A stretch of DNA of 64,000 nt from Verrucomicrobiota bacterium (GTDB lineage Bacteria > Verrucomicrobiota > Verrucomicrobiia > Opitutales > Opitutaceae): assembly GCA_016235555.1 (NCBI GenBank), contig JACRKC010000085.1:1-64000 (forward strand), given 5' to 3'. The notes under the pieces were generated by a model, which did no database searches, had not been told where the DNA came from, and saw only the letters and a list, made by a program, of their open reading frames with translations. Of this stretch, positions 13,548 to 64,000 are shown in pieces. The translations under genes and the position numbers were made by a program. The first letter of the stretch is position 1. Every line of letters begins with the position of its first letter.

Positions 13548-13599
13548 AGATACCCTGTAACTTTTGGCGGCTCGAGGGGTATTGGGCAATGCACCTTCT

Positions 13600-15799: not shown

Positions 15800-15841
15800 G
15801 AATTGCCTGGCGTCGGCGTGGGCCGACGGTGGGATCGCGCC

Positions 15842-16699: not shown

Positions 16700-16796
16700 C
16701 CACGAAATACACGAAGCACCCGAAAAGTGCCGGAAAACAAAAGAGCCGGCTCGGGGCCGGCTCCATTTTCGTGTGTCTGGTGTGTTTCGTGGTGCC
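16700..16796. repeat. Palindromic unit, family C copy 1, with terminator-like hairpin
   Basis: The outer arms ACCACGAAATACACGAAG and TTCGTGTGTCTGGTGTGTTT followed by CGTGGT are largely complementary. The centre has GAGCCGGCTCGGGGCCGGCTCC followed by ATTTT, which could terminate the tatD-like gene. A related unit is at 17930-18003. Confidence 0.65.
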
Positions 16797-17096: not shown

Positions 17097-17174
17097 GGTC
17101 GCGGAAAAGCCGGGCAAAATCCCGGTCGAGTCACTGGCTTGCAACCTAAAAACCTGCCATCAGGATGCGGGTCG

Positions 17175-17921: not shown

Positions 17922-17929
17922 GTTGAGGA

Positions 17930-18003
17930 ACCACGAAATACACGAAATCACCGAGTCCGCCGATAGCCGGTTTCCTTTTCGTGTGTTTGGTGTGTTTCGT
18001 GGT
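17930..18003. repeat. Palindromic unit, family C copy 2
   Basis: AACCACGAAATACACGAAAT pairs with the right end TTTTCGTGTGTTTGGTGTGT followed by TTCGTGGTT. It lies between the convergent ends of kdsB and carA and resembles the unit at 16700-16796. Confidence 0.65.
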
Positions 18004-18005
18004 TT

Positions 18006-36341: not shown

Positions 36342-36453
36342 AGCCAGCCACGATTACCCTTCCGGCTCGCCCCCGCCGCGTTTGCCGGACGCTGACCGAC
36401 CGCCGCCTACCACGCACGAGGCGGCTTCGCGTTTCATGGAGTCGTGGCTGGCT
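36342..36453 (+). promoter_or_regulatory. Long-range inverted repeat in the leader of the coupling ATPase gene
   Basis: AGCCAGCCACGA (36342-36353) is the exact complement of TCGTGGCTGGCT (36442-36453), with weaker pairing on both sides. In the RNA it would close an 88-base loop and end 8 bases before the ATG at 36462. It could control translation, or mark a transfer site. Confidence 0.45.
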
Positions 36454-36461
36454 CCGCCGCC

Positions 36462-37748
36462 ATGAACGACGAGCAGATCTATTTCGGTCACGAACAGTGC
36501 TACGGCTCCGAGCGTCCGTTTGGGCTCGGCGCTGCGGACGCGCGCCGCCACACCTACATCATCGGCCAGACCGGCGCCGGCAAGAGCACCTTGCTGCGCA
36601 ATCTGGTATTGCAGCTCATCGCCGCCGGGCATGGCGTCGCACTCGTCGATCCGCACGGCGATCTTGCCAACGAACTGCTCGATCACTTCCCGCCTCATCG
36701 CGCGGATGATCTGGTTTGCTTCGATCCGGCCGATGCCGACTTCCCTATCGGCCTGAATCCGCTCGCCAACGTCCCTCCCCACCAGCGGGCGCTCGCGACG
36801 GCCGGCCTCGTGTCGGCGTTCAAGAGCATCTGGCGCGAGTCGTGGGGGCCGCGCCTCGAATACATCCTCGCCCACACGCTCGCCGCGCTCATGGAGGCCG
36901 ACAACACTTCCCTGCTCGGCGTGAACCGGATGCTCGCCGAGGAGGGTTATCGTGCGTGGGTCGTCCGTCAGGTGCGCGATCCATTCGTCCGCGCGTTTTG
37001 GACGGAGGAATTCGCGCGCTATGACGCACGGTTTCTGCGCGAAGCCGTCGCGCCGATCCAAAACAAGCTCGGACAACTGCTGTTGTCACCCGCACTGCGC
37101 AACGTGCTCGGACAAGTCCGCAGCAAAGTCGATCTGCGCTTCATGATGGACTCGGGCCGAGTGTTCATCGCCAACCTCGCCAAAGGAAAACTCGGCGCTG
37201 AACCGTCCAATCTCCTCGGCGCGCTGCTCATGGCGCAGTTTCAGCACGCCGCGATGACGCGCGCCGACACGCCCGAGCACGAGCGACGCGACTATTTTTT
37301 GGTCATCGACGAATTCCACAATTTTACGACGGAAACTTTCGCCGTGGCGCTCGCCGAGGCCCGCAAATACCGGCTCAACCTTACGCTCGCCCACCAATAC
37401 CTCGACCAACTAACGCCGGAAACGCGCGCCGCGGTTTTTGGCAACGTCGGCACCGTCGTCGCCTTCCGCGTCGGCTACAGCGACGCCGACGTGCTGGCGG
37501 ATGAATTCGGACAGGAATTCACCAAAGCGCAGTTCGCCGATCTGCAACAACACGAGGTTTTCATGCGCACCTTGCAGGACGGGGTGCCGCGCGTGCCGTT
37601 CCGCGGCAAGACACTCCCACCGATCTCCGCGCCCCATCGCCGCCGGGACAAATTGCGGCAACGCTCCCGCGACAAATACGCCACTCCGCGCGTTCTTGTC
37701 GAAAACCGCCTCCATCGTTGGATGGAGAGCTCCTCCTATCGGGACTGA
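36462..37748 (+). CDS. Conjugative coupling protein-like ATPase (TraD/VirD4 type)
   Basis: A 428-residue P-loop ATPase. Walker A GQTGAGKST is at about 35-43, ALVDPHGDLANELLDHF follows it, the Walker B YFLVIDEFHNF is at about 277-287, then arginine/Q-type ALAEARKYRLNLTLAHQYLDQL. This is the FtsK/HerA family form of conjugative coupling and TraM-recognition proteins, which push DNA into a type IV secretion channel. There are no N-terminal membrane segments. The start at 36462 (MNDEQIYFGHEQ) is preferred to a GTG at 36444 inside the inverted repeat. Confidence 0.85.
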   Translation: MNDEQIYFGHEQCYGSERPFGLGAADARRHTYIIGQTGAGKSTLLRNLVLQLIAAGHGVALVDPHGDLANELLDHFPPHRADDLVCFDPADADFPIGLNPLANVPPHQRALATAGLVSAFKSIWRESWGPRLEYILAHTLAALMEADNTSLLGVNRMLAEEGYRAWVVRQVRDPFVRAFWTEEFARYDARFLREAVAPIQNKLGQLLLSPALRNVLGQVRSKVDLRFMMDSGRVFIANLAKGKLGAEPSNLLGALLMAQFQHAAMTRADTPEHERRDYFLVIDEFHNFTTETFAVALAEARKYRLNLTLAHQYLDQLTPETRAAVFGNVGTVVAFRVGYSDADVLADEFGQEFTKAQFADLQQHEVFMRTLQDGVPRVPFRGKTLPPISAPHRRRDKLRQRSRDKYATPRVLVENRLHRWMESSSYRD

Positions 37749-40776: not shown

Positions 40777-41054
40777 GTGCCGCGACCGCCGCAAGATTTC
40801 GGCTTGGTCGGATTGTCGCGACGCCACATGCGCTCGCGACTCTGCCGAATGCGGAAATCCTGCACGCCATACAGCGCCACCATGCAGGCGATTGGGGCGA
40901 CGTATGCGCCACGGATCGCGCAGTCAACGACCTCGCGTTCGTCGAAGGCACACGCTTGTTCTCTGTCTATCATAGCCAAACGGGCACTAAGTTTTGGATT
41001 ATCACTGAGGCCGACCGCTCCGTTACGACCGTCTTGCTTCCCGAGGATTATTGA
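40773..41054 (+). CDS. Small plasmid-type hypothetical protein (93 aa)
   Basis: A 93-residue protein, GRIVATPHALATLPNAEILHAIQRHHAGDWGDVCATDRAVND...LFSVYHSQTGTKFWIITEADRSVTTVLLPEDY. It resembles a small family I associate with plasmids and conjugative elements; function unknown. It starts with GTG overlapping the primase stop by 4 bases. A hairpin overlaps its stop and a clean terminator follows. A broken second copy of its 3' end occurs at 47569-47600 plus 50182-50263. Confidence 0.75.
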   Translation: MSAATAARFRLGRIVATPHALATLPNAEILHAIQRHHAGDWGDVCATDRAVNDLAFVEGTRLFSVYHSQTGTKFWIITEADRSVTTVLLPEDY

Positions 41055-41335
41055 TCCTCGCGCCCCTCTTTTCGAGAGGGGCTTTTTTTGTCGTCGGTTT
41101 GCGCTTCCTGATTGGCGATTCAGTCATTATGGGCTTGGTGTCGGTCTTCCATTCGCTGGAGCCGTTCGGTAACCCGCTTCTCATTGTCGGTGTTCTCTTC
41201 GTCTCGATTTCATCCACCGCAACCGTGACGATCGCGAAGATACCAGCAGACCCTGCCAGACAACAATCACGCCTTGAGTTGAATCTCGCCAAGTTTCTTC
41301 GGTTTGCCCTTCCTACCAAACGCACGCCTCCCGCT
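41055..41335. other. Terminator and unassigned sequence before large NTPase gene
   Basis: After the terminator at 41062-41089 there are about 245 bases with no gene I trust. It should carry the promoter of the large NTPase gene, but I find no clear box. A minus-strand frame across this stretch is discussed under rejected items. Confidence 0.3.
41062..41089 (+). terminator. Rho-independent terminator of the primase/93-aa gene unit
   Basis: GCCCCTCTTTTCGAGAGGGGC (41062-41082) is a strong hairpin followed by seven T (41083-41089). Just before it CGAGGAT (41042-41048) pairs with ATCCTCG (41054-41060) across the stop codon. Confidence 0.85.
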
Positions 41336-44300
41336 ATGCTGCCGAACCCCGCCTCTCCTGCACTGCGAATTGCCTACCTACAGCTAGCCGATGACGCTAA
41401 GCGGGCTGTTGCGGGAGCACTGCTCTCTGTTGACAGTCTGTGCTTTCACAGGCTTGTGCATGAAGCCCAGCTTGCAAAATCCGGACTTACGGACGAACAA
41501 ATCAGCACACGAACAAGGGGAAGTGGTGAGCAACTTGACGACGCATTGCTCGGAACGCGCGGGCAAGGTGCGATGATTCTCACGCTGGCATGCGCACATT
41601 TTCTCGCTGTAGCCCACAGAGAATGGTTGCGAGAATTCGCATCAGTCCTGCGTGTGAGGGCGGATTCCAGTCGCCAAGCCGAAGCTATAGCCGCTCTGGC
41701 GCCACGGCACCGGGGCGATCGTGAATGGCTACTGCTGCCCGCATTGTTCGTGACCGATCCAGCCTTTTGTTCAAATTTGGTTGCTCCATTCGCACCGCCG
41801 CCGAGGGCTTCTGCGCCTCCAATCGTTCGAGCGGCGCCACCGGTCCGTTCGCCGCCTGATCGCGCGCTGGCACCGCCGAAAACTACTGTTCCGCCGCCAA
41901 CGGCACCGATGCCGCAGCCAAACATGCCGCAAGACCAACCTATTCTGGTGCCGGCTCCACCCGAGGCGCAAGCAACAGTTTCGACGCCACAATCAACAAG
42001 AAGTCTAGGTTCGGCTCTACCTGCATCACGATTCACCGATGAAGAAAAAGACCATCGCCGCATTATTGCACGGTTACTATTGAGCGACCGCGCAGCACTT
42101 GCTGCCAAATATGCAGAGTCCTGCGCCAGTTCGCTTGCGGTGCCGCCAGCCCCTCTTCTTTACATTCTTAAGTTACAGTGCGCATTGCGGTGTGCCGACG
42201 GCCCAATCTCCGATGCGATTCAAACCCAGTTGAAGGAAGTATTAACCACAAATTCGACAGACGATTCGTCGCATCGGCTTCTCTGGTGGAGTGCGATTCT
42301 TTTGCCGGCTCTTATTTCCCCAAGCAGTCAGGCCGATGGGCATTTGCATGCCATCGAGCCGCCCAACGGGTTGACCGCGCTGCGCCTATTAACTGACGCT
42401 GCGAGGTCGCTCACGCAACGAGTGCGTTCCTTAAGCCCCAGCGTGTTGCGCGGCGGCCAAGCGCGCGTCGAATACGAGACGCGCGTGCGCGCCGTTGCCG
42501 CCGATGCCGCGGACTTCGTGCGCACAGCGCCGCTGCGCAACTTCAGTTTTCAGCCGGCCACCGCGCTGTGGCAAGATTTCGTCAAACGCCGTGAGCACCA
42601 CGAACTCGCGCTATTCCTACAGCGCGAACCGTCGCCGGCGGCCGTGTCTCAAGTTCGTCAAATTTATGAAGCACTAGCTTACGAGACAAGCTTTCGGCGT
42701 CTGGTAAGAAAGCGCGACGCAGAACGGCTTGGCAGCGGCAGGCCGCGCCCACTGATCGAAGGCACAGCGTTGGGTCAATTTGTCGAAGCCACCAAGCCAT
42801 TACTCAAAATTGCTGACGAATGGTTTGTGCTGGCAAGTAAGGAACTTAAGGCACCCGACTATGTGACCCAGCGAGTCGACGAATTTCGTCGCGCAACAAC
42901 TAAGGGGCTACCTAACGTCCTTGCTGAGATTCGTGGGTTCGGAAACAGTCATCGCGAAGATTCGCTCGCGCAAGCTGCAGCTCATGTAGCTCTCGAGACC
43001 GTAGGACGCCTGCAAAAACTCCTCGACCGTGATCAACTCTGGCCAGAAGATGAACCGGAACCAACCCGATTTATCGCAGCCGAATTCGCGGGGGTCTCCG
43101 CGCTGCCGCTTGGTGATGACGGTTTCCCCGCGTGCACTTCGGATGTGCTGCGCTCTAAGCTCACCGCCGCGGTGGAGAAATCGGAGAACTCCGTCGATGC
43201 GTTTCGTGAACGTCTCGGCCGTGGCGATCTTCTTGGTGCTGCGCTTTTGCGCGAGCATATCACGGCTACTGATCCGAATGCGGCCGGACCATTGGCTGAA
43301 GAATTTAGCCAACAGAGCGAGCGCCTTCGCGCCGGTGTGCGTGATGTGCTGGCGCGAACGCACCGAGCTTTAGGTTCAGCCCGTGCGCTCGGTATCTTTG
43401 GTGATGCCGAGGCCGCTCCTCACGAACTGTCCCTTGTGGAGCAGGAGCAGAAATTGGAATCTACAGAGCGCCTTGATTTAGCGCACGCCTCCGCATTGGC
43501 TGTGCAGCAGGACATCAACGCGCGTCGAAACACCGCCGCACAAGTCGAATTGATCCAGCTTGCCACACAGCCGATCGACCCAGAATCCCGCACACGGTTA
43601 ACAAAACTCGCCAACGAGGGTGACCTGCTCACATTTCGCGAGTATCGCACGTTGCTCGAAATGGGCCAGCCGTTGCCGACCGCCGAGGGCACGCAGTTAA
43701 TGCGCGATTTCGATCGTGATCGAGTTGCCGCGCTGGACTCTTCCCTTGCGCAACCACCAGGAGTGCAAAATCTCCTTATGGCGCTGCGCGACGGAGGCCG
43801 ATTCGGGGGGATTGATTTTGCATCAAAGGACACAGTTACTCGCAAACGCATAGCCGCATGGCTCACCGACGCGTGGCTGCGTTTGAAATACTCAATTCAG
43901 GACACGCATTCCACCGAGCCCGCTTTGAACGCTCTTCTGGCTGGACTAGGTTTTGTCGTTAAAGAGATTAACATACGGCCCATTGGCGTGGAGCGTTGCA
44001 TCGCTAATGTGGAGGTCGAACCTTACGCTAGCCGCGACGTGTGCCCCGTGCCACGATTTGGCTCAAGTGGGAAAGCACAGCTGCGCGTAGTTCTGCTGCG
44101 GGGCGAACAATCTGCGGATGCCTTGTTACAAGCCGCGGGGGAGACCGCGCACGATCCGCGTGTTGTCATCGTGTGTTGCCTTGGCCGCGTGCCCCCTGTG
44201 CAGCGGGCTGGTCTTGCGCGGCTGTGCCGCGAGCGGTGGCGCAGCATTCTTTTGCTAGACGAGGCGCTGGTTGCTCATCTTAGCGGCGAGCCCGAACCGC

Positions 44301-46456
44301 GGCTGCGCGCGTTCTTCCGCGCTGTGATACCGTGGACGTTTGCCGACCCTTTCGTGACCTCATCGAGCTTGGTTCCACCTGAAATGTTTTACGGTCGTCA
44401 CAAGGAGCTTGCTGCCCTGCAAGACTCAGTCGTGGGTTGTTGCTTTCTCTTCGGCGGTCGCCAACTCGGTAAAACTGCTTTGTTGCGTGAGGCCGAGCGC
44501 CGGTTTCATTGCCCTGCTGAAGGTCGCGTTGCCTCGTGGATCGATCTCCTTGGCCACGGTATCGGTCGGGAAAGTGAACCAGCCGATGTTTGGCCATTAC
44601 TACTTCACGAATTACGTCCGGATGTGCCTAGTTTGATGGAAGCAGCCCGTCCTGACGAGATTACTCGAGCGCTTCGCGCGTGGCTTAACGACGCGCCGCA
44701 CCGGCGGATATTGTTACTGTTGGACGAAGCCGATCAGTTTCTTGAACGCGACGAGCTGAGCGACTTTGCGGAAACCCGCCGTTTACGCGGTTTGATGGAT
44801 GCAACAGAACGTCGTTTCAAGGTCGTCTTCGCTGGACTACACAACGTGTTGCGAACGGCGGAGCGCGCAAACCACCCATTCGCGCAACTTGGTCAACCAG
44901 TCAATGTGGGCGCATTTTCCGAGAGCGGTGAATGGGCTGAGGCATTTGCACTGGCGGAGGAGCCGCTCCGCGCATTGGGTTTTCGATTCGAGTCACGCGA
45001 CCTTGTCACGCGCATCATCAGTCTCACCAATTTTTATCCGGGCCTAATCCAGCAGTTTTGCGCACTGCTAACGCGACAAGTGCTTGCCCGCAGCGCAGGG
45101 GGACCGCCTTACTTCGTCACAGCGGACGATATTGAAGGTGTATGGCGTGATCGCGAATTGCGGAAGTTTATAGCCGACCGGTTCGGATACACCCTCCAAC
45201 TCGATCCGCGTTACCGTATGCTTGCTTACTCCCTAGCGCACGAGTTTCACGAGTCTGGTGGTCAAGCAGCGGGCGGCACATTGACTGAACTTCGACGATT
45301 GGCTAACTCTCGGAATGAATACCGCTTCGCGCCATTGCGCGAGCGGCAATTCGAGACACTATTAGAGGAAATGTGCGGCCTGGGTGTGTTGCGCCGACGC
45401 GCCGACCGCTACGAATTGCGCAACGCCAACCTATTGCTCCTTCTCGGCGACCGTCAGCAAATACGGGAGGTGTTGGAAGCAGATGTGCCTGACACGCCCG
45501 CCTACGCGCCAGACACTTTCCATGCGCGTTGGAAAAACGATCCTGCACGACGGCGCCCGTTGGCAAAATCGGACGAGGCCCGGCTGTTGAAACTGGCGCA
45601 CTTCACAGCGTTCGTTGCCGGCTCCGACGCGCTTGGACTTTCCGGTGTCGCACCGAGCCTTCAGATCGTATTCCCTCCCGGTCGAGTCCGAAAAATTGAG
45701 CCGAGTGGCAGCGCGAGATGGGATGATTTCCGACGCAACCTTGATTCAATACGCGACGAAACTTCCAGTGGAATAGCTGTTGCGACTATTGGACCAGCCG
45801 TGCAATGGGACGTTTTCTGGGTGAACTACGCAGTGGAGTTTTGCGAAAAGCTGCGCTCTGAGCAGCGTTTTGTGCGTGTAATATTCATTGCTCCAGCTGG
45901 CCGTCTTTGGAACGAATCCGATGCACGAGGTTGGCTTGATCTGCCGGCTTTGCGCGAACGACTGTTTCTTCAAAAGTGGAGTCCGGGCTTCATTGCCTCG
46001 TGGCTAGATGGAATTGGCCTAAGCCCGCGTAGCGAAGTAATCGATGCTGTGCGACGTGTAACCGGCGGCTGGCCGTTGTTACTTGCCCAATTCGCGGACA
46101 AGTTGCGTGAGCTGAACAATCCGGCTGCCTGGCAAGGCGTGCTGGCCGAACTTGAAACCGAACAGGGGCAAGGAGACCCGCGCCGTGCCACTCTGCTTCA
46201 GAAAATTGTCGGCACCGGAGTGCACGCTGATTCGGCTGTTTCAATACTGCGTCAGCTCCACGCGTTAGACACGCGACAGGATGCGGCAATTAACGACGAA
46301 GCTGACGACGTTGCACTATACGCTGATATTATCGGCGTTGCCCCAGGGCAGATGGCGTGGACACTCAAGATTGCTGATTTGCTTGGACTCATGGACCGTG
46401 TAGCCGTGGGCGAACTGCGGTGGGATCCGCTGGTTTCCCGCATATTGCCGTTGTGA
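41336..46456 (+). CDS. Very large STAND-like P-loop NTPase, candidate conflict-system sensor
   Basis: A 1706-residue protein I cannot name. The N-terminal helical part to about 150 is followed by a Pro-rich linker (152-220) and long helical stretches to about 900. A segment with RLRAFFRAVIPWTFADPF precedes FYGRHKELAALQDS and the P-loop GGRQLGKT at 1040-1047; Walker B RRILLLLDEADQF starts at about 1124. Sensor-like LTNFYPGLIQQFC and winged-helix-like sequence follow, then about 330 more C-terminal residues with a second AAA-like look but no Walker A. The form suits a STAND regulator or immunity NTPase. The start at 41336 is the last ATG before MLPNPASPALRIAYL; there is no Shine-Dalgarno. The stop overlaps the next gene (GTGA). 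Codon use is less GC-rich than the chromosome. Confidence 0.7.
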   Translation: MLPNPASPALRIAYLQLADDAKRAVAGALLSVDSLCFHRLVHEAQLAKSGLTDEQISTRTRGSGEQLDDALLGTRGQGAMILTLACAHFLAVAHREWLREFASVLRVRADSSRQAEAIAALAPRHRGDREWLLLPALFVTDPAFCSNLVAPFAPPPRASAPPIVRAAPPVRSPPDRALAPPKTTVPPPTAPMPQPNMPQDQPILVPAPPEAQATVSTPQSTRSLGSALPASRFTDEEKDHRRIIARLLLSDRAALAAKYAESCASSLAVPPAPLLYILKLQCALRCADGPISDAIQTQLKEVLTTNSTDDSSHRLLWWSAILLPALISPSSQADGHLHAIEPPNGLTALRLLTDAARSLTQRVRSLSPSVLRGGQARVEYETRVRAVAADAADFVRTAPLRNFSFQPATALWQDFVKRREHHELALFLQREPSPAAVSQVRQIYEALAYETSFRRLVRKRDAERLGSGRPRPLIEGTALGQFVEATKPLLKIADEWFVLASKELKAPDYVTQRVDEFRRATTKGLPNVLAEIRGFGNSHREDSLAQAAAHVALETVGRLQKLLDRDQLWPEDEPEPTRFIAAEFAGVSALPLGDDGFPACTSDVLRSKLTAAVEKSENSVDAFRERLGRGDLLGAALLREHITATDPNAAGPLAEEFSQQSERLRAGVRDVLARTHRALGSARALGIFGDAEAAPHELSLVEQEQKLESTERLDLAHASALAVQQDINARRNTAAQVELIQLATQPIDPESRTRLTKLANEGDLLTFREYRTLLEMGQPLPTAEGTQLMRDFDRDRVAALDSSLAQPPGVQNLLMALRDGGRFGGIDFASKDTVTRKRIAAWLTDAWLRLKYSIQDTHSTEPALNALLAGLGFVVKEINIRPIGVERCIANVEVEPYASRDVCPVPRFGSSGKAQLRVVLLRGEQSADALLQAAGETAHDPRVVIVCCLGRVPPVQRAGLARLCRERWRSILLLDEALVAHLSGEPEPRLRAFFRAVIPWTFADPFVTSSSLVPPEMFYGRHKELAALQDSVVGCCFLFGGRQLGKTALLREAERRFHCPAEGRVASWIDLLGHGIGRESEPADVWPLLLHELRPDVPSLMEAARPDEITRALRAWLNDAPHRRILLLLDEADQFLERDELSDFAETRRLRGLMDATERRFKVVFAGLHNVLRTAERANHPFAQLGQPVNVGAFSESGEWAEAFALAEEPLRALGFRFESRDLVTRIISLTNFYPGLIQQFCALLTRQVLARSAGGPPYFVTADDIEGVWRDRELRKFIADRFGYTLQLDPRYRMLAYSLAHEFHESGGQAAGGTLTELRRLANSRNEYRFAPLRERQFETLLEEMCGLGVLRRRADRYELRNANLLLLLGDRQQIREVLEADVPDTPAYAPDTFHARWKNDPARRRPLAKSDEARLLKLAHFTAFVAGSDALGLSGVAPSLQIVFPPGRVRKIEPSGSARWDDFRRNLDSIRDETSSGIAVATIGPAVQWDVFWVNYAVEFCEKLRSEQRFVRVIFIAPAGRLWNESDARGWLDLPALRERLFLQKWSPGFIASWLDGIGLSPRSEVIDAVRRVTGGWPLLLAQFADKLRELNNPAAWQGVLAELETEQGQGDPRRATLLQKIVGTGVHADSAVSILRQLHALDTRQDAAINDEADDVALYADIIGVAPGQMAWTLKIADLLGLMDRVAVGELRWDPLVSRILPL

Positions 46457-47529
46457 GTGATCCGCTGATTTGGAGCGCACCAGGCCCTCAGGCTTTTGTG
46501 CGGCGCATCGCCGCTGAAGCTTCAAGCGGGAATAGCGTGATTGTATCCACTGCCGGAGCAACACCGAGTGATCTTGCTGAACGCGTGGAGGCAGCGCTTA
46601 TGAACAGCCGTCATGCACAATGGCCCAACGCCGAAGCCGAGCCTGCAACTGCGCTGCGGGCTTGCCATAGTGGCCAGCCTCATGAGACGGATTTGCTGAA
46701 GTATCTTATGTGCGCTTGCGAATGGGGCGCGACATTCTACTTGGTGCGGTCAAGCGAAGAAGCCACAACGAAACGCTGGCTGGATTTTCTAGTAGCGCTT
46801 GAGCCGGGCTTGCGTCGCCAGGATGCTGCAACTCGGCCGGTGTTCGTGCTATTCGCCCTTAGTGAAAACAAGCCGTCCCAGATGGTGCAGACCGTGGCCT
46901 TAAAGGCCATGGCGTGGGCGGACGCGCTCAATGAAGTCGATTTTCTTGCAATGGCCTGGCCGCTCGCGTCTCAAAAGCAAGACCGGCACGCATTGCTACG
47001 CCGTTTGCGTGCGCATACTCTAGCGCGCGTCGCTCTTTGGGACGGCGCGCTCATGCTCAAGCTTGCATTGCAAGCCGATCATGTGTTGCTGGCTCCACAA
47101 GCTTTGCTTAGCCGCCATGCAGCAGAACTCGGTTGGACTACAGCCACACTCGAATCGTTATTATTGGGGAGCACCGCAGAAATAGAGGGTATGGTTGTGC
47201 CACACTCTGCATTGCTCGTGCTACGCGGCCAGAATGAGCAGTTGCGTGGGCGGTTATGGCAGGCTCAGGCTGCGGTGCTCCTTTCGTGGCTGGAGGAACA
47301 ACGGTTAGAGCTGATAGAGCGCGCCAAGGGGTTTCTTGGAGGCGTGCATCGCTTAGATGAATTTGAAATCGGAGAAATTGAGAATGCACTCAGGCAATTG
47401 CATATAAGACCCACTGGTCTAGTCGAGCGTGCCTACAGGTTACGAAATGCTCGCAACACAATCGCCCATCTTGGTTTGATTGAGTTCGGAGAGCTGCGTG
47501 CGCTACTGGAATGGTTGGCTCGACACTGA
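46453..47529 (+). CDS. Partner protein of the large NTPase, function unknown
   Basis: A 358-residue protein starting with GTG overlapping the NTPase stop by four bases, so the two are translationally coupled. The N-terminal half resembles a degenerate ATPase-like fold without a P-loop (FVRRIAAEASSGNSVIVSTAG). The C-terminal third is helical and ends with a HEPN/MAE_28990-like look (AYRLRNARNTIAHLGLIEFGELRALLEWL), including an R-x4-H-like RNARNTIAH motif. That last point, if right, would make it a possible RNase effector; it is inference only. Confidence 0.65.
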   Translation: MSDPLIWSAPGPQAFVRRIAAEASSGNSVIVSTAGATPSDLAERVEAALMNSRHAQWPNAEAEPATALRACHSGQPHETDLLKYLMCACEWGATFYLVRSSEEATTKRWLDFLVALEPGLRRQDAATRPVFVLFALSENKPSQMVQTVALKAMAWADALNEVDFLAMAWPLASQKQDRHALLRRLRAHTLARVALWDGALMLKLALQADHVLLAPQALLSRHAAELGWTTATLESLLLGSTAEIEGMVVPHSALLVLRGQNEQLRGRLWQAQAAVLLSWLEEQRLELIERAKGFLGGVHRLDEFEIGEIENALRQLHIRPTGLVERAYRLRNARNTIAHLGLIEFGELRALLEWLARH

Positions 47530-50078: not shown

Positions 50079-50181
50079 TACGCCTCCGGCGAATCGATCT
50101 TCGCCCTCGGCGTAAACTACCCGCTCAAGGTGGCTGCATTTGACCCCGCCCTAGCTGGCTGCATTAGCCCCGCCCGTGACA

Positions 50182-50315: not shown

Positions 50316-51110
50316 TTATTTAGCACCAACTCTATTCTCCTGGCGCAGGTATTCTCCATGAATGACTGAGCGCACGCACAAACATATTGCTAGAACCACT
50401 ATCACTGGCGTAAGCGTAATCCAAGGTGCGTTCCCAAAGAAGCGAAGCCCATCGCTCAAAATAATGCCAAGCGTCGGATGCGGAGGCGACGGCCCGAAGC
50501 CGAAGAGCGCCAAGGCCATATCAAGCGCAAGCAGTTCGGCAATAATTGTGGCGCTCGCTGTAACGACCGGCTTTGCGCATACCGGGATCAAGACATGCCG
50601 AATAACCTTCCCGAAGGAGAATCCCATTGCGAACGAGGCGCGAGTATAAAGAGCGTGCAAGGCGTCTCGTGCTACCGCACGCGCCATACGTGCCGGTGGA
50701 GCCCAGGCCCAAAGCACAATCACGCCAAAGATGACGCCGGTTCCACGGCCAAGAACTGCGCCTAGCCCTACAAGCACCAACAAGAACGGCGTGGCATAGG
50801 TCACCTTAATGGCCCAATCAAAGATTCGTCCTATCGGGCGATTGGCGAGCACTGCCGCACTTACGCCAACTATCAAGCCTATCGCGGTCGCTATCGCCCA
50901 AGCCGGAAGAACAAGCGTAGTTGCTTCGGCTGTGGCGCGCAATACGCGAGAGAAAACGTCTCGGCCAAGATGGTCGGTTCCAGCAAAATAGATCAGCGAA
51001 GGAGCGGATAGCCGGACATCAAGGTTTGGCGCGTCGCTTTTTTCCAACCACCATCCCGCGGTGCAGAGTGCGACTGCCGTGAGCACAAGCATTGTTTTCA
51101 AAAACCTCAT
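50316..51110 (-). CDS. Peptide/nickel-type ABC permease (OppC/DppC-like)
   Basis: A 264-residue inner-membrane permease of the BPD_transp_1 type, with the N-terminal segment, AGTDHLGRDVFSRVL before the membrane domain and an EAA-like loop (ASFAMGFSFGKVIRHVLIP). It is the second permease of an Opp/Dpp/Nik-type importer. It overlaps the upstream permease by four bases (ATGA) and ends the operon. GC content is clearly lower than the chromosome. Confidence 0.88.
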   Translation of the reverse strand: MRFLKTMLVLTAVALCTAGWWLEKSDAPNLDVRLSAPSLIYFAGTDHLGRDVFSRVLRATAEATTLVLPAWAIATAIGLIVGVSAAVLANRPIGRIFDWAIKVTYATPFLLVLVGLGAVLGRGTGVIFGVIVLWAWAPPARMARAVARDALHALYTRASFAMGFSFGKVIRHVLIPVCAKPVVTASATIIAELLALDMALALFGFGPSPPHPTLGIILSDGLRFFGNAPWITLTPVIVVLAICLCVRSVIHGEYLRQENRVGAK

Positions 51111-52036
51111 GCTGCCGTCCCATCTTTGAAATGCGCTGCAACGCGAGGGAGCAGTAGTCGCTCGAAAAGCGCATCCATTGCGAGAAAGCTGACCACGAGC
51201 ACCACAGCGGCCGCTTGGACCACAGGCAGATCGTTATTCACGACCGCCCGCGCCAAGAGACTCCCGATTCCAGGCAGCGAGAACACGACCTCAAATACCG
51301 CAGAGGATACGAAGATTGTGGCGGCGATGTTGGAGAAATGCCCCATCCAGCTTGTCAGGATAACCGGGCGCAAGGCCCGCCAAAACACCATCAATTCCCC
51401 TAACCCCATCGCTCTCGCGGCGACAACGAACGGAGCGGCTCGTGCGCGCTTCGATTCAACCAGGCCAATTTCAGTGAGCGAACAGGTGGGATAGATCGCC
51501 AGCGCCGTGATGATCCCCGCGACAGCACTTGTGCCTCCGTCTACAAAACTTCCGGCTGAGATGTAGATACCGAGGCCGACGATGATGGCGAGAAGCAAGC
51601 TTGGGATGCTGGTCAATACGCGTGTGCCTACTAGCAACAGTGTCTCGAAAGTGCTCCTTCCTATTTGAGCCACGCCGGTCAGAAGTAAGCTCGCCAAAAT
51701 ACTCGCTGCCAAGGCGAAAGCAGCGTTGCGTGCGGTTACGAAAAAACTATTCGCGACTAGGGATGCCGCGTCCTGCCGCGAGTTGATGGATTTTCCAAAA
51801 TCCAGCCGAACCGCCCTTGAAAGATAATCCAGATAGCGTGCAATCATCGGCCGGTCATAGCCCAGCTCGTGTCGCAGCTCGGTGATTGCCTGCACACTTG
51901 CATTTACACCCAGAGCGTTTCTGACCGGATCAGAAGGCAAAACCGAGAAGACGAGAAAGACAATTGTCAGTGCGACCAAAACGACAGTGGCGGCCGTCGC
52001 GATAGAACGAAATCCGAGGTATCGTTGAAAGTTCAT
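51107..52036 (-). CDS. Peptide/nickel-type ABC permease (OppB/DppB-like)
   Basis: A 309-residue permease with the typical N-terminal domain (LPSDPVRNALGVNASVQAITELRHELGYDRPMIARYLDYLSRAV), several TM segments and an EAA loop (AARAMGLGELMVFWRALRPVILT). It pairs with the 50316 product to form the channel. The start at 52036 (MNFQRYLGF) is preferred over an in-frame codon eight residues earlier. Confidence 0.88.
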   Translation of the reverse strand: MNFQRYLGFRSIATAATVVLVALTIVFLVFSVLPSDPVRNALGVNASVQAITELRHELGYDRPMIARYLDYLSRAVRLDFGKSINSRQDAASLVANSFFVTARNAAFALAASILASLLLTGVAQIGRSTFETLLLVGTRVLTSIPSLLLAIIVGLGIYISAGSFVDGGTSAVAGIITALAIYPTCSLTEIGLVESKRARAAPFVVAARAMGLGELMVFWRALRPVILTSWMGHFSNIAATIFVSSAVFEVVFSLPGIGSLLARAVVNNDLPVVQAAAVVLVVSFLAMDALFERLLLPRVAAHFKDGTAA

Positions 52037-52063
52037 CGCACGAGCCTCACGGCACGCCAAATC

Positions 52064-53671
52064 CTATTGGCCGGTCCGCAACTCCGCTAGCAACCAATGA
52101 TTGTTACCAGTAACTTGAAGATTCGAGACGTATCGCTGGCCAACATAGAAATTCGTCACATGATAAAGCCAAGCAGCCGGAGGCCCTGCCGCTGCGATGG
52201 TTTCAATTTTCGCGCACAGCCGATTTATCTGGGCACGGTCATTTGCCTTCGCTAGTTCAACGAACAGAGCCTCCGCGCGATCATCTGAATAGCCAAACAG
52301 ATTAGGATTCGGCTGCGCAGACCGCTTAAACACGTCCATAATCAATTCCGGCGCTGCGTAGATCCAATCGCTGGATGCCATAAAAAGCGGTGGTCGCTCT
52401 TTGGAAAACAGTCGCGATACAAGCGTATTCAGATCGACGAGATCGATTCGGCTCTTGATACCGATCGTCAGCAGATTGCTCTGCACGACCTGCGCGACAT
52501 CGGCGTGGTTTGGTAGACTGCTGACCAGCAGAACAAGCTCTTCGCCACCATAAGAACTCTCCGCCACCTCTTTTTTCGCCGCGGCCAAATCTGTCCGAAG
52601 ATTCACCGGAGGCTCATACCCTTGCATGCCCGGAGGCACCGGCCCACGGGCCGGAATCGCCCCGCCGGCCAAAAGTTTTTTTGCGATCGTGTCTCGATCT
52701 ATCGCGATTGAGATTGCGTGCCGTAGCTTGGGGTCACGCAACTGCTGTGAGTCCATTCCAAGATAATGCACATTAAATGTGGCCGCTTCGAAAGCTACCA
52801 ACTGCCCGCTAAGCTCGGGCCGCAGTTTCCCTTGATCGAGAAAGTCGGAGCGAAACTCGAATGGGAGCTGCATCAAGCTGTAGTTGCCGGCGCGAAATGC
52901 AGCGACCCGCAATTGAGGATTTTTCTCCACACGAAAAACCACTCGCTGCACATTACCGGTGGTTGGGCGCCAGTAGTCGGGATGTCGTTCCAGAGTGATT
53001 TCAGTGGGCGAGGCGGTCGTTAGCCGAAAAGGCCCTGTGCCGACGGCCACCGTGCGACCAAATTGCTCTTTGTTCGCCTCCAAAACCTCGGGCGCCATGA
53101 TGGCTAGGTATGGAGTTGTTATCCGGTAGAGAAACGAAAGGTCAGGCCGAGTCAGCGTAAAAGTAACCTCCCTGTCGCCGGCCGTGGTAATACCGGTGAT
53201 TGTCGGTGCGGCTTTCTTCACATATTCATCGAAGCCTTCAATCAGCCCCTGAAACACAAACGAACCGAAGCCTCGCGCCAATCGCTCATAACTAAAAACA
53301 ACATCACTGGCCTTAACTACACGCGTCTGCTTTTCACCAACAAATACAGGGTTGCGATGAAAGAAGGCATTTTCTCGTAGTCGGAAGCTCCATTTCTTGC
53401 CGCCCTCAGACGTATGCCAAGATTCAGCTAACATAGGTGTGACTTCGTTTTTCTCATTTAGCCCGACGAGTCCTTCGTATATCTGCCACACCACGCGAGA
53501 CGTAATCGGGTCAGACAGCGCCGCCGGATCAAGAGTCTGAATGTCTCCCTCCAGCGGAATGATGACCTCGGCCAGCTTTTCATGACGGGGGCTCGTCGTG
53601 CCGCTACGCCAAATCAGTGCCCCAGCAATGACAGCGCCGGCAACAACGACAGCAATTAGAGTTTTTTTCAT
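52064..53671 (-). CDS. Extracellular solute-binding protein family 5 (peptide-type)
   Basis: A 535-residue periplasmic binding protein, probably anchored by an uncleaved N-terminal segment or exported (MKKTLIAVVVAGAVIAGALIW; no lipobox Cys is seen). It has the SBP_bac_5 pattern: IQTLDPAALSDPITSRVVWQIYEGLVG, WSFRLRENAFFHRN, VGTGPFRL and LRHAISIAIDRDTI. AAAGGAG precedes its ATG. It binds peptides or related ligands and feeds the two permeases. Confidence 0.9.
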   Translation of the reverse strand: MKKTLIAVVVAGAVIAGALIWRSGTTSPRHEKLAEVIIPLEGDIQTLDPAALSDPITSRVVWQIYEGLVGLNEKNEVTPMLAESWHTSEGGKKWSFRLRENAFFHRNPVFVGEKQTRVVKASDVVFSYERLARGFGSFVFQGLIEGFDEYVKKAAPTITGITTAGDREVTFTLTRPDLSFLYRITTPYLAIMAPEVLEANKEQFGRTVAVGTGPFRLTTASPTEITLERHPDYWRPTTGNVQRVVFRVEKNPQLRVAAFRAGNYSLMQLPFEFRSDFLDQGKLRPELSGQLVAFEAATFNVHYLGMDSQQLRDPKLRHAISIAIDRDTIAKKLLAGGAIPARGPVPPGMQGYEPPVNLRTDLAAAKKEVAESSYGGEELVLLVSSLPNHADVAQVVQSNLLTIGIKSRIDLVDLNTLVSRLFSKERPPLFMASSDWIYAAPELIMDVFKRSAQPNPNLFGYSDDRAEALFVELAKANDRAQINRLCAKIETIAAAGPPAAWLYHVTNFYVGQRYVSNLQVTGNNHWLLAELRTGQ

Positions 53672-53690
53672 GTTCGGTTGCTCCTTTCTC

Positions 53691-54827
53691 CTACGCGGCC
53701 TTTATTAGAGTGCCTAGGAACTGCTCCGCGTCGGTTCCGAACAGTTCACGAAAGCGGGGGTGCGCAAGACCGGCCCGATAAAGCGCGAGCGCGTCGAAGT
53801 CGAAATCGGCGATCTTACCCACCGCTCGCTCGTCATAGAGCTTCGCATTTACCAAGTCCTCAGCGGCCAACCACTGTCCTTGGTGTGTGACGCGTGCAGC
53901 CCGCCACAAACCTACGGGAACGGTTGTTGCCTGAACACGGAGCGTAATTCCGTTGCTCAGTTCGCGCCGTGTCACGCGCAGGATGCCGCCCGAGGTGATG
54001 AACCCCTCCTGTTCGAGGTGGCGCTGAAGGTTCCAGCAACTAGATTCGAGTTCGAGTTTAACTTCGACGGCATTCTTGATTTCAATTTGCGCCAACCGCC
54101 GCAGCGCACGAACAAGCCGCTTTGCATAGTTGGAATCTTCCACCCGGAGCGCCGCCGATGTGTATGTCTGCGGTTTATACACTCCAATCGAAAAGTTTCG
54201 CAGACCTAAACCAGCATTCAGCCCCGAAACAATTTCCGGAATCGCATCCAAGTTGGATTCCATTACCGTGAGCGATACCCATACCCGATCCCCCATTGTC
54301 TCCAATACCCAGGGAATGTTCGCCGCCATAGCCGCGAAGGCCCCTTTTCCCCTAATCGAGTCATGCGTCGCCTCCAAGCCGTCAATGCTTACGTCCAGCC
54401 AGTCTGGCTGAATAGAGGTCAGGTTCTCACGATAGTTGTGCAGCAAGGTGCCATTGGTGATTACGCCCAGACGGGTTTTCGCGCTAGCATCAGCCTGCAC
54501 TGAATTCCGGAGGTGGATGGCTTCACAGAACAAACTCACGCTCTCGTCACTTGCGAAGACCTCCTTTCCGGAGACACAGACTGCATCAGGCCGCAAATCC
54601 TTGTAAACCGAACGGAGAAAACGAAGCCAGTCAGCCGACCGCAAACGGCTAAGAGTCTCCTTCGGCTGAAGATAGCAATGAGCACAGCGCAGATTGCAGA
54701 GGCTATTGATGACGATGCTCAACACGGAAAGTCCCGCTATCTTTACAGCAGGGACGAGACCGCCGAGAGAGCCGGCCATGATGTTGATGGCCAGCACTGG
54801 ATGAAACAGATCGAATGTGTTATTCAT
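53691..54827 (-). CDS. Radical SAM enzyme in an Opp-type transporter operon
   Basis: A 378-residue radical SAM protein. The cluster Cys are C44, C48 and C51 in CNLRCAHCY, in the form shared with anSME/SPASM-type and peptide-modifying enzymes. There is no second Cys cluster: the C-terminal region has a single Cys, so no SPASM domain is seen. The N-terminal 40 residues are hydrophobic and Gly-rich (SLGGLVPAVKIAGLS). In the first half AVCVSGKEVFA replaces the usual GGEP motif. It lies four bases after the ABC ATPase. A role modifying a peptide taken up or exported by the neighbouring transporter is inferred. Confidence 0.8.
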   Translation of the reverse strand: MNNTFDLFHPVLAINIMAGSLGGLVPAVKIAGLSVLSIVINSLCNLRCAHCYLQPKETLSRLRSADWLRFLRSVYKDLRPDAVCVSGKEVFASDESVSLFCEAIHLRNSVQADASAKTRLGVITNGTLLHNYRENLTSIQPDWLDVSIDGLEATHDSIRGKGAFAAMAANIPWVLETMGDRVWVSLTVMESNLDAIPEIVSGLNAGLGLRNFSIGVYKPQTYTSAALRVEDSNYAKRLVRALRRLAQIEIKNAVEVKLELESSCWNLQRHLEQEGFITSGGILRVTRRELSNGITLRVQATTVPVGLWRAARVTHQGQWLAAEDLVNAKLYDERAVGKIADFDFDALALYRAGLAHPRFRELFGTDAEQFLGTLIKAA

Positions 54828-54831
54828 GGTG

Positions 54832-55656
54832 TTAAATTGGTTTGGTCTCGGGGTTGCCCATCGGCTGTCCGAGCGCCCGTGAAGCTTCTAGCAGCCGCTG
54901 GCCCTCGATGCTGGAAGGATGATCAAGAAACGCCGCGCTCTCCCGTATTTCAACCACCCGCCCTTCAGCGAGAACACACACCCAATTGAAGCGCGGGAGC
55001 AGGCGTGCATCATGCGTTATGAAAATCAGCGTGGCTCCGTGTTCCTTTTGAAGATCGAATATCAAATCTAGGACTTGCGCTGCTGAAACGCTATCGAGAT
55101 TCGACACCGCCTCGTCAGCGAGGAGCAGATGCAGCGGGCCGGGCGCCGCGAGTGCCATCGCGATGACTACACGTTGGCACATGCCACCGGAGAGTTCAAA
55201 GCTGCGGGCCTTGGAAATTCTCGAGTAGTCGGTCAACCCGACTCGTTCCAACGTTCTCCTGGCCTCGCGTGCCGCCGTTGCGGCACTCATCTGCCTACGG
55301 AATCGGAACGCTTGCTCAACCTGTTTTCCGATTGGCACCCCCGGTATGAGCGATCCAGGTGCGTCTTGAAACACCACGCCCACGCTTTTCCGACGATATT
55401 CTCTGACTTCTCTGCTACCCGATCGGCTCAGGGCAAAATTTCCGGGCAAGCTCACGTCACCTGCCCACCGCGCACTTTCTGGCAGAAGCCCAAGCACCGC
55501 CATAGCCAGAGTGCTCTTGCCAGCACCAGAGCCGCCGACCACGCACACGGTCGAGCTAGGCTCAAGGACTACGCTTATGTTACTGAGAGCCCGAAGGCGC
55601 GCGTCGCCCGAGCCATATTCGACGGTCAAATCTCGAATCTCTACCGAATCACTCAT
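54832..55656 (-). CDS. Opp/Dpp-type ABC ATP-binding protein
   Basis: A 274-residue ATPase. Walker A is GGSGAGKS at 41-48, the signature LSGGM at 155-159 and Walker B HLLLADEAVSNLD at about 177. The sequence around the Q-loop (GVVFQDAPGSLIPGVPIG) is of the OppD/DppD type. Only one ATPase is present in the operon, whereas typical Opp systems have two; it may act as a homodimer, or its partner lies elsewhere. It begins one base before the stop of the upstream gene. Confidence 0.88.
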   Translation of the reverse strand: MSDSVEIRDLTVEYGSGDARLRALSNISVVLEPSSTVCVVGGSGAGKSTLAMAVLGLLPESARWAGDVSLPGNFALSRSGSREVREYRRKSVGVVFQDAPGSLIPGVPIGKQVEQAFRFRRQMSAATAAREARRTLERVGLTDYSRISKARSFELSGGMCQRVVIAMALAAPGPLHLLLADEAVSNLDSVSAAQVLDLIFDLQKEHGATLIFITHDARLLPRFNWVCVLAEGRVVEIRESAAFLDHPSSIEGQRLLEASRALGQPMGNPETKPI

Positions 55657-56852
55657 TACTTCTTCTCTTTCTTCTTCCGCGTTTTTCGTCCCGTGCGAAC
55701 ATGCGCACGTCGTTCATGATTGTTTTCGCCCAAACTGGTTGCCGCTTCGTCCCACGGTGTCCGCCATTTTCCAATCAGCCCGTCCCAGCGGATGCCGGTG
55801 ATTCCAAACCTCTCAAACTCGCTATCCAACTCCTCGTCATCGAGCGGAGTGCAAAACGTGGCAGCTCGTGAGCTTTCAAGCTTCATGAAAAGCTTAGGGT
55901 GACGGATCATTCGCCAGCCCCGTTTGGTTCCATTCGAATGTAAGTTTATCGCAAGATAAAGGGCCTCCGGGAGCGTTCTTTCGCTACTAATCGGAACTAT
56001 GCCCACCTTGGTTTTTTTATCCTCAGGAACCGGGCTACCATTCTCCGAATTCAAAATCTTCTGTTCGAGTTCCCGTTTGTCGTTTTCTGCATCCCGCTTC
56101 CCGGCGTCATTCTCGTTTCGACACCAAGTTCCGAGCACAACGTATGTCCTTATTTTGGGCGCCAAACTCCTCCAAGAATTCCCGAATGCAGGCTCCCTTA
56201 GTTCCTCAGCCATCGCATTTGTTCTCTTCTGGCTCTGCGGGCTGCTGCCAATATCCCAAAAAAGGAAGAGAATAACGCGCCCTTCTGTTTCCTTTTGCAA
56301 CGCACCCAAGTCATCTCCGTAAGTGCGTTGTGACAGCAAGCACGCCGTTGCTAGCAGGAGTTGAGCGGCGTCTAACCGCCGCGTGGAATCTTCCGGGCGC
56401 TGTGTGTAAATACTCAACAGTTCCCCGCGAGCAGCGTTGCAAGCGGTGCGAACGATTTGCTCAACTGAGCGACCGCCCGTGAATGCAGGGTCTATTAACC
56501 TTAAAAACTCCGCGATCTTGTCTTCGACAACAGCCACGTCTTGAAATTGGAATACACCTAAACCGTCGAGGGCGTCAGCGAGCGCACGTGCGATGGCTAG
56601 GGTGCGTGGCTGATATGCTCGGGCAGCGTGCTTCACGCGCCATTTCTCAACCAAGGCAGGTGTCACAACCGGTTGCTCGAGCGGAAATCGGCTGTTGATG
56701 GCCTTGGCAATGGTGATGCTCGTGGGCCGAGTAGGCGAATTCTTCAGCAGTTCGCCGAAATACTCATTCCAAGAGGGTTGACCGGGCATGGCTACGCCTG
56801 CGCTGGATTGCGCCGATGCAGTTGCGCCTTTGTTCCGTGTGTTTCGCGCCAT
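55656..56852 (-). CDS. Unrecognised HTH-like protein heading the radical SAM/ABC operon
   Basis: A 398-residue protein. The N-terminal 100 residues include a possible helix-turn-helix (ITIAKAINSRFPLEQPVVTPALVEKWRVKHAARAYQPRTLAIARAL). The middle has a Cys-containing helical part and the C-terminus is strongly basic (RTGRKTRKKKEKK). I recognise no family. It is the first gene of the operon and may regulate it. Start at 56852 (MARNTRNKGA); an extra upstream frame has no ATG. Direct repeats GCGCAAAT/C lie just upstream. Confidence 0.65.
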   Translation of the reverse strand: MARNTRNKGATASAQSSAGVAMPGQPSWNEYFGELLKNSPTRPTSITIAKAINSRFPLEQPVVTPALVEKWRVKHAARAYQPRTLAIARALADALDGLGVFQFQDVAVVEDKIAEFLRLIDPAFTGGRSVEQIVRTACNAARGELLSIYTQRPEDSTRRLDAAQLLLATACLLSQRTYGDDLGALQKETEGRVILFLFWDIGSSPQSQKRTNAMAEELREPAFGNSWRSLAPKIRTYVVLGTWCRNENDAGKRDAENDKRELEQKILNSENGSPVPEDKKTKVGIVPISSERTLPEALYLAINLHSNGTKRGWRMIRHPKLFMKLESSRAATFCTPLDDEELDSEFERFGITGIRWDGLIGKWRTPWDEAATSLGENNHERRAHVRTGRKTRKKKEKK

Positions 56853-56882: not shown

Positions 56883-56945
56883 GCGCAAACTTTCTTCTCA
56901 ATGGGCTAAGGTCGCAGATGGTCGCGCAAATAGAATTGCGCAAAT
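56883..56945. promoter_or_regulatory. GCGCAAA(T/C) repeats upstream of the radical SAM operon
   Basis: GCGCAAAC at 56883-56890 and GCGCAAAT at 56924-56931 and 56938-56945 (the last two with a 14-base period). They precede the operon start at 56852 and could be sites for its HTH-like first product. Confidence 0.4.
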
Positions 56946-63683: not shown

Positions 63684-64000
63684 ATGACCTTGATCGACGA
63701 GAAACTCTCGCGCCAGTTTCTCGCGTGGGAACGCCGCGGTCGCGGGTGGGATGTTTTTTCCTGTCCCGTCGCGCCCGAGCCACCGTTCCGGCCCTTCAAG
63801 GGGCATGTGCTCCCCGCCGTCGAAGTCCTCGACGATGGGCGCAAGCCCACGCTCGCGAGCGCGTGGATTCAATCGCTTGGCCGGAGCTTGGCAGGCACCA
63901 TTGCAACTCCGACCGAGCCTCAACTCGACCAAGAGGAACCGCCGCCAACGCCGTTTGAGCGCGGATCGCTCGTCGAACTGCCGGCGCTCCTTCCGCCCAA
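63684..64000 (+). CDS. Start of a further gene of the cluster, cut by the window end
   Basis: An open frame starting ATG 63684 (MTLIDEKLSRQFLAWERRGRG) runs to the end without a stop; about 105 codons are visible. The beginning WERRGRGWDVFSCPVAPEPPF is a sort of N-terminus I have the impression occurs in large ATPases of conjugative systems. Only the first third at most is present, so no call is made. Confidence 0.6.
   Translation, partial: MTLIDEKLSRQFLAWERRGRGWDVFSCPVAPEPPFRPFKGHVLPAVEVLDDGRKPTLASAWIQSLGRSLAGTIATPTEPQLDQEEPPPTPFERGSLVELPALLPP

Follow-up and report, generated by a model that had tools for sequence, protein, structure and literature searches.

Organization of the operon

The stretch of DNA analysed here (the window, 64,000 nucleotides [nt] long) consists of bases 1-64000 of an 84186-base contig from the 8.03 Mb genome of a Verrucomicrobiota bacterium, and at 50316-56852 it carries six intact minus-strand open reading frames (ORFs) packed in the manner of an operon. 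In order of transcription these encode an orphan protein (gene 1), an ATP-binding cassette (ABC) ATPase, a radical S-adenosylmethionine (SAM) enzyme, a solute-binding protein (SBP) of the SBP_bac_5 class and two BPD_transp_1 permeases, the last five of which form a unit that is conserved in other genomes. Gene 1 overlaps the start of the ATPase gene by 1 nt, 4 nt separate the ATPase and radical SAM genes, and 19 nt separate the radical SAM and SBP genes; the SBP gene is followed after 27 nt by that of permease B (taking the ATG at 52036 as its start), which overlaps the gene of permease C by 4 nt. With every junction either an overlap or a gap of at most 27 nt, the tight succession of six genes described in the first-pass annotation of this DNA holds. 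The features are as follows.

55656..56852, minus strand: gene 1, orphan, 398 amino acids (aa), first ORF of the operon; its position suggests an output or regulatory role
54832..55656, minus strand: importer ATPase, Opp/Nik class, 274 aa; Walker A motif GGSGAGKS, signature LSGGMC
53691..54827, minus strand: radical SAM enzyme, 378 aa; CNLRCAHC, GKE replacing GGE, SPASM-like tail without cysteines
52064..53671, minus strand: SBP, SBP_bac_5 class, 535 aa; hydrophobic N-terminal stretch, no HbpA-type Asp motif
51107..52036, minus strand: permease B (BPD_transp_1), in an ORF that begins with TTG at 52060
50316..51110, minus strand: permease C (BPD_transp_1), from its Pfam match
56883..56944, plus strand: three GCGCAAA repeats upstream of gene 1, a candidate operator

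All parts of an Opp/Dpp/Nik-class importer were recovered in Pfam searches, namely SBP_bac_5 (5.9e-61), two BPD_transp_1 permeases (1.6e-9 and 1.4e-13) and, from the operon's one ATPase gene, ABC_tran (1.9e-19), which confirms the earlier description of one Opp-type ATPase, a peptide-class binding protein and two permeases; the radical SAM enzyme matches Radical_SAM at 2e-8. No protein of the operon reaches the cut-off of any model among those listed in NCBIfam, and PADLOC 2.0.0 gave no system-specific match for the core, the ATPase matching ATPase components such as mad3 (2.4e-24) and the only other match being a weak one to pVip. The lower GC content remarked on previously is also evident, at 0.53-0.56 in the operon's seven 1-kb segments and 0.58-0.72 in 50 of the 57 remaining ones. 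A search for a sigma70-like promoter found none, where 3.6 were expected from shuffled sequences. The repeats reported upstream of gene 1 do exist as three copies of GCGCAAA, the sole triple within 65 nt in the whole window, and represent a possible operator.

Related loci and conservation of the core

Eight related loci were found, nine with the window, and the radical SAM enzyme is their constant part. A tblastn-type search of 387 genomes of the phylum gave a match at 0.001 in 144 of them; among the best 29 loci besides the window, which were examined, there was one recognisable distant relative (L032). A two-sequence profile searched against 384 genomes of the class added G402 and G414 (E 6e-40 and 3.6e-36, with the next match at 1.7e-12). 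Scanning a genome collection with three sequences gave five loci, two of them those of G402 and G414 again (L066 and L067), on contigs of metagenome-assembled genomes (MAGs) that are titled Verrucomicrobiia and Verrucomicrobiota and both belong to the window's own class, and three in further MAGs titled Candidatus Hydrogenedentes, Vicinamibacteria and Candidatus Binatia (39-41% identity). A genome-wide scan with the window radical SAM sequence alone found nothing, probably because its patterns were taken from peptides that are not conserved, and an alignment with two relatives worked.

A seven-sequence radical SAM profile gave 363-633 bits for its own building members and at most 70 bits for other radical SAM proteins of the same seven genomes. 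L108, which is not part of this profile, scored 165 bits in a sample of 148 genomes (next match 93 bits; first 20 loci examined), while L118, at 84 bits among 297 genomes, scored no better than unrelated radical SAM proteins, so that its recognition depended solely on neighbouring genes and motifs. Because L118 first appeared at 84 bits, more members may hide among the weaker matches. Further samples of 198, 68, 93 and 97 genomes contained only already known members at the cuts used; matches were listed only down to 1e-30 in the first two, and the 77-90-bit matches of the last two were not individually inspected. The system is rare, with 1 to 4 members recognised in each sampled group (68 to 387 genomes, counting the centre genomes), these numbers being lower bounds. 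Viral contigs gave either nothing or weak radical SAM matches at eight loci, where no importer homologue was detected at 1e-4, and no match covering 80% of the query was found in plasmid records (four radical SAM queries) or phage records (one query). A match on a Rhizobium plasmid was rejected, as it involves different radical SAM genes, next to which the annotation shows no importer. A short ATPase match (79 aa, ~1e-6) lies beside a generic radical SAM gene in L054 and L055 (at about 254-472), which belong to two small genomes of the same class.

The gene set had been recommended for a search in other genomes, and the order ATPase-radical SAM-SBP-permease-permease was found in five other loci (L066, L067, L077, L078 and L079). 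The core proteins of the window are 27-37% identical to those of these five Opp-class relatives. Pairwise identities of the radical SAM enzyme, the SBP and both permeases correlate at r 0.94-0.98, and those of the ATPase correlate less well with them, at r 0.62-0.74 (15 pairs, not independent, in both cases); the radical SAM enzyme, SBP and permeases have diverged in step. The order in L108 is SBP-permease-permease-SIR2-radical SAM, on a contig that ends inside the SBP gene and in which no ATPase gene was seen. L032 and L118 share the order radical SAM-ATPase-permease-SBP, with one-to-one homology between the two, and their importer is of the NMT1/Tau class, an NMT1-type SBP being matched by Pfam in L118 only. 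The radical SAM enzyme is thus paired with two importer classes, Opp and NMT1/Tau. As to whether the genes also occur apart, a point on which the first-pass annotation had staked its proposal, the core genes were together in the genomes searched, though the two distant radical SAM relatives use another importer class.

Features of the radical SAM enzyme

The window enzyme retains the CxxxCxxC motif and lacks the SPASM cysteines, as had been noted before, and its C-terminal part is nevertheless predicted to fold like the SPASM/twitch domain of known maturases. The cluster motif is followed by GKE in 8/8 members compared and in 4 of 122 other radical SAM ORFs, 101 of which have GGE or GSE; three of the four carry GKE at a different spacing from the cluster motif and the fourth (L105) is the member L118. 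An N-terminal [AST]GxxGG motif is present in 7/8 members versus 1/122 other ORFs, and takes the form GSxxGS in L032 and L118. Three or more cysteines in the last 140 residues occur in 0/8 members versus 108/122 other ORFs, so that the members lack the auxiliary-cluster cysteines of SPASM domains. The L108 enzyme passes the Pfam SPASM cut-off with a single cysteine (24.4 versus 21.5 bits), in agreement with a SPASM domain whose ligands have been lost. Since the GKE, the N-terminal motif and the poverty in cysteine were in part picked out from the very sequences on which the profiles were built, they describe the family rather than test it.

A structure model of the enzyme (predicted template modelling score 0.80; mean predicted local distance difference test [pLDDT] 76.8, with residues 1-30 below 50) has as its nearest solved folds anSME, SuiB, CteB and SkfB (Z 21.4-22.6; 21.0-22.6 with ChlB included), followed by MoaA (Z 19.9) and the viperins (Z 18.7). 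By sequence profile and by fold, the enzyme is closest to maturases of sulfatases and of ribosomally synthesized and post-translationally modified peptides (RiPPs). The possibility of a viperin was provisionally set aside on the fold ranking of the model (18.7 versus a best Z of 22.6); the PADLOC match to pVip is weak and confined to the N-terminal half (1.2e-7). A viral fold library returned general radical SAM matches only. The enzyme reaches no curated family cut-off among the NCBIfam models listed, and so was not matched to a known housekeeping function; such a match would have undermined the first-pass annotation. An alternative start at 54779 would place a conserved MAGSLGG at the N-terminus, and no clear ribosome-binding site was seen before either start (54827 or 54779). 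In L067 a second radical SAM protein, cysteine-rich and of the SPASM type, is encoded at 14747-15988 (minus strand), 5' of the operon and past the coupling protein.

The importer and its possible ligand

The importer of the window falls below the cut-offs of the named NCBIfam equivalogs (NikA, OppA, DppA and others), with 104 bits against 600 for the SBP and 152 against 319 for the ATPase; the best-scoring models are NikA for the SBP and NikD for the ATPase. The GDNGDP stretch of HbpA aligns to YVFSAP of the L079 SBP, which therefore lacks the Asp motif (GD..DP), and the remaining five SBPs have IYAAPE, VFSTPE, VYSAPE or VFSAPE at this place, giving the consensus [VI][FY][SA][AT]PE in all six. 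The Asp of this motif is thought to hold the free amino end of bound peptides. Because the SBPs are without it, an ordinary oligopeptide would seem a less likely ligand, and a blocked or cyclic peptide, or some other ligand, seems likelier.

When the L079 SBP was compared against eight genomes, the operon SBP scored at least four times as high as the next SBP in the five genomes with a second one listed (G000, 307 versus 77 bits; G402, 449 versus 97; G414, 453 versus 77; G647, 395 versus 71; G649, 1251 [self] versus 97), and G648 had no second match. As the operon SBP far outscores the other SBPs of these genomes, the importer is apparently not one taken over from the host.

Gene 1 and the genes downstream of the core

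Gene 1 has no Pfam family above cut-off, no family in NCBIfam or PADLOC and no solved relative; no relative was found in any of the 287 other genomes among 288 sampled from the phylum, nor among viral contigs or plasmids. It had been called an unknown protein resembling a helix-turn-helix (HTH) regulator: the first part of this description stands, while an HTH could not be shown, since there is no Pfam match and a single-sequence structure model was uninformative (pLDDT 36.7). Comparison with the DUF2971 protein of L032 gave nothing significant. In the window this orphan, whose gene overlaps that of the ATPase, is a candidate output or regulator.

In L066, L067, L078 and L079 the core is followed by a protein of 703-777 aa and then by proteins with receiver-like motifs (one motif only in L066). 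VDD and a later D are invariant in five stretches, which were chosen for those motifs, and a receiver-like profile retrieved four solved proteins named as a kinase, a response regulator or CheY, at E 0.16-0.91. In L077, an ORF at the end of the contig has short motifs in common with the ~700-aa proteins in an alignment. L079 adds a sigma54 activator (Sigma54_activat, 4.3e-66); neither its N-terminus alone nor the C-terminal part of the L079 ~700-aa protein has a relevant solved relative. In L108 a SIR2_2 domain (1e-17) is encoded within the operon, and DUF2971 is above cut-off in both NMT1/Tau-class loci (1.6e-6 and 1e-6), as a C-terminal domain in L032, where the PADLOC candidate model PDC-S31 overlaps it (2.1e-5), and as a separate gene after that of a 444-aa protein in L118. 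No homologue of the ~700-aa/receiver-like module was found among gene 1 and the 1801-aa and 369-aa proteins of the window.

Some further genes were observed at these loci. The 444-aa protein of L118 (6313-7647, minus strand), encoded between the SBP and DUF2971, belongs to no family and has no BLAST similarity to the 679-aa protein of L032. A gene at 14093-15403 (minus strand) of L032 encodes a receiver-like N-terminus joined to a CAP12/PCTIR TIR domain (PADLOC candidate PDC-S35); it is convergent to the operon of radical SAM, importer and DUF2971 genes, and its link to that operon is uncertain. Past the receiver-like genes of L116, at 7351-18818 (minus strand), a same-strand run encodes a 1008-aa protein, a Response_reg-like protein of 476 aa, a 604-aa AAA protein and a DegT/DnrJ aminotransferase.

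Comparison with known systems

The Opp/Dpp/Nik importers likewise consist of an SBP, two BPD_transp_1 permeases and ATPase, but here there is one ATPase, a co-diversified radical SAM gene, scores that fall well short of the NCBIfam equivalog cut-offs, and no HbpA Asp motif. The radical SAM/SPASM maturases (SkfB, CteB, SuiB, anSME) appear, from the model, to share the radical SAM barrel and the SPASM/twitch-like fold; the enzyme described here differs in lacking the set of auxiliary-cluster cysteines and in having GKE instead of GGE, and no precursor or exporter was found with it. The window operon encodes importer-class components, the radical SAM enzyme and the orphan only, with neither an exporter nor a leader peptidase.

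Pheromone import in conjugative plasmids is exemplified by PrgZ/Opp/PrgX of pCF10. There too a peptide-class SBP importer is found on a conjugative-type element, and PrgZ is a distant SBP relative (75 bits), but the present loci have a dedicated full importer and a radical SAM enzyme, and no pheromone gene or recognisable receptor was found. For the Rgg/SHP systems with radical SAM RiPPs (RaS-RiPPs), genes of both the pheromone and the precursor have been identified, and the host supplies the oligopeptide permease; what they have in common with the present loci is radical SAM chemistry alongside peptide-class import, while here the importer is dedicated and no peptide gene was found. In the streptococcal systems, radical SAM chemistry is tied to imported peptide pheromones (PMC13361665). 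Radical SAM proteins have also been described as effectors in the vWA-MoxR ternary conflict systems, in an account whose text does not contain the term "ABC transporter" (PMC7159879). These systems are alike in having a radical SAM protein among conflict-system genes, but no vWA domain is among the Pfam matches of the proteins scanned here. Prokaryotic viperins (pVip) share with our enzyme the weak N-terminal PADLOC match, and differ in its maturase-like fold rank and linkage to an importer.

Within the titles and opening lines of abstracts of the open-access papers listed, no description was found of a radical SAM enzyme that has its own SBP-dependent importer together with downstream genes of these kinds. 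Together with the family searches, this agrees with the first-pass annotation, which knew no named system of this composition. The composition appears to be undescribed, and the function that we set out below is put forward as a proposal.

A possible import-and-modify sensing system

What is directly observed comprises the set of genes and the fact that it is conserved as a unit, the class of the importer, the features of the radical SAM enzyme and the mobile context described below. We propose, tentatively and with somewhat less than even confidence, that these loci encode a modular, rare and mobile import-and-modify sensing system with exchangeable outputs. The dedicated SBP-dependent ABC importer would deliver one particular small molecule or peptide to the cytoplasm, where the radical SAM enzyme, of the peptide-maturase lineage and without auxiliary SPASM clusters, would modify either this ligand or some part of the system itself. 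Either the product of this modification or the loaded transporter might then switch a lineage-specific output module, which could be the perhaps kinase-like ~700-aa protein with receiver-like proteins (and, in one locus, a sigma54 activator), the SIR2-domain protein or the DUF2971 protein. In the window, either the receiver-like module was lost or gene 1 serves instead. A bolder form of this proposal, which we regard as possible but more doubtful, is that of a new modular class of conflict or social-signalling systems, in which a fixed radical SAM enzyme, marked by its N-terminal Gly/Ser motif, is combined with swappable importers (Opp or NMT1/Tau) and outputs (a phosphorelay with sigma54 activator, SIR2 or DUF2971), converts an imported extracellular molecule into a trigger, and is spread partly by conjugative elements. 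Within this, a sub-reading is that the disordered, conserved N-terminal tail of the radical SAM enzyme is its own substrate or a built-in trigger.

If the proposal is correct, these loci would represent sensing or defence in which a molecule taken up by the system's own importer triggers an exchangeable output only after radical modification, and the radical SAM enzyme may perform an undescribed radical reaction without auxiliary clusters. As the family can be recognised from sequence (the GKE, the N-terminal Gly/Ser motif and the Cys-poor SPASM-like domain), the hypothesis is testable.

Several observations count against a sensing system. There are nine loci in total, gene 1 has no recognisable domain, and the window copy is without the receiver-like module. 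The ~700-aa proteins match clearly in pairs only (L066-L067, 1.6e-51; L078-L079, 4e-12), with 0.001 at best between the pairs, and the partial protein at the L077 contig end has no BLAST match to them at 0.01. These proteins are perhaps kinase-like to judge from a reading of motifs, and Pfam and PDB searches do not show them to be kinases; the receiver identity is likewise weak (Response_reg, 0.0031 and 0.11). In G757 and G319, two of the eight genomes compared, the L079 SBP query matched only away from the operons, with no match at the operon SBPs. The ligand, chemistry and output are proposals, and a pathway of uptake and processing would present the same core.

Such a pathway, in which a nutrient, metallophore or cofactor precursor is imported and converted by the radical SAM enzyme and the neighbouring signalling or defence-like genes are separate cargo, is in our view unlikely, though it deserves consideration. 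The Opp/Nik and NMT1/THI5 importer classes serve metal chelates and vitamin precursors, and the best NikA/NikD scores of the window SBP and ATPase, as well as the missing HbpA-type Asp motif, would suit a ligand of this kind. The rarity of the core, at 1 to 4 members per 68 to 387 genomes (lower bounds), speaks against it, as do the conjugation genes near three loci, the SIR2 gene inside one operon and the lack of any metabolic gene inside the core operons read.

The first-pass annotation favoured processing of an imported or exported peptide, such as a signal or a bacteriocin-like product. Export is not supported, as the transporter belongs to the SBP-dependent importer class and the operon encodes no exporter. 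A related possibility is a RiPP or peptide-pheromone cluster, in which a peptide encoded elsewhere is modified by the radical SAM enzyme, exported, and re-imported by an Opp-class system, as are enterococcal and streptococcal pheromones. We consider this improbable. The enzyme is nearest RiPP and sulfatase maturases in profile and fold, the importer is of the Opp class, and the operon is carried on a conjugative-type element, but the core lacks an exporter, a peptidase and the SPASM cysteines, two loci have a non-Opp importer, and no small ORF is conserved above shuffles. Cross-locus matches numbered 110 for the 158 small ORFs of nine stretches from eight loci, versus 93-113 in five shuffles; this count excluded any ORF lying by more than half within larger ones, of which some are spurious in GC-rich DNA. 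With curated gene lists for the nine loci, 114 ORFs gave 92 matches versus 80-105 in ten shuffles, and the best real E of 0.001 lies within the shuffled bests (4e-5 to 0.004). The earlier impression that no precursor gene is visible thus holds, although a precursor that is not conserved or is encoded at a distance may exist. A bacteriocin-type RiPP is weakened by this and by the lack of SPASM cysteines and of an exporter. Since there is no conserved precursor and the SBP is without the HbpA-type Asp motif, a simple RiPP cluster and plain oligopeptide uptake both fit poorly. Small ORFs 5' of the ATPase gene in L067 (11715-11801, minus strand) and L079 (1499-1579, plus strand) both begin with MTLP or MTL (E 0.009, within shuffles).

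The carrying element

The operon was previously described as cargo of a mobile element, and this is supported: it lies among genes for a TrwB-like coupling protein, a D12-class DNA methylase, a replication-relaxation protein and a primase, on a contig that also carries an IS21-type insertion sequence (IS) and a large serine recombinase, and the element appears to be of conjugative type. The principal features outside the operon are as follows.

36444..37748, plus strand: type IV coupling protein (TrwB-like), 34% identical to the coupling protein of L066 and 31% to that of L067
47836..50078, minus strand: IS21-type istB/istA beyond the 3' end of the operon (IstB_IS21, 1.9e-70; rve, 1.6e-11)
63684..64000, continuing to contig position 66851, plus strand: second coupling-protein homologue, from homology

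Both coupling-protein homologues of the window contig are 29-34% identical to those adjoining the operon in L066 and L067. Related coupling proteins are thus present on the contigs of all three Opp-class copies found in the window's class, adjacent to the operon in two of them (L066 and L067).

The istA start lies 238 bp past the permease C stop, the IS may end at short repeats located at 50120-50169, and it is on this side of the operon that the relatives carry their ~700-aa and receiver-like genes. These positions, and the lack of a homologue of the module among the three window proteins compared, would fit a cut-down or decaying remnant in which IS21 insertion removed the receiver-like module and signalling was lost, a reading that we find quite improbable given that all six ORFs are intact and the ATPase and radical SAM motifs are kept. 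As the ORFs are intact and gene 1 overlaps the ATPase gene, the window may instead carry a variant with its own regulator.

Past the edge of the window, at contig 67940-69442, the large serine recombinase is a candidate integrase of the element. At 41051-47529 (plus strand) the gene of a 1801-aa AAA-domain protein is followed by an overlapping gene for the 369-aa protein; the two have no PADLOC match and look like a separate cargo pair of the element.

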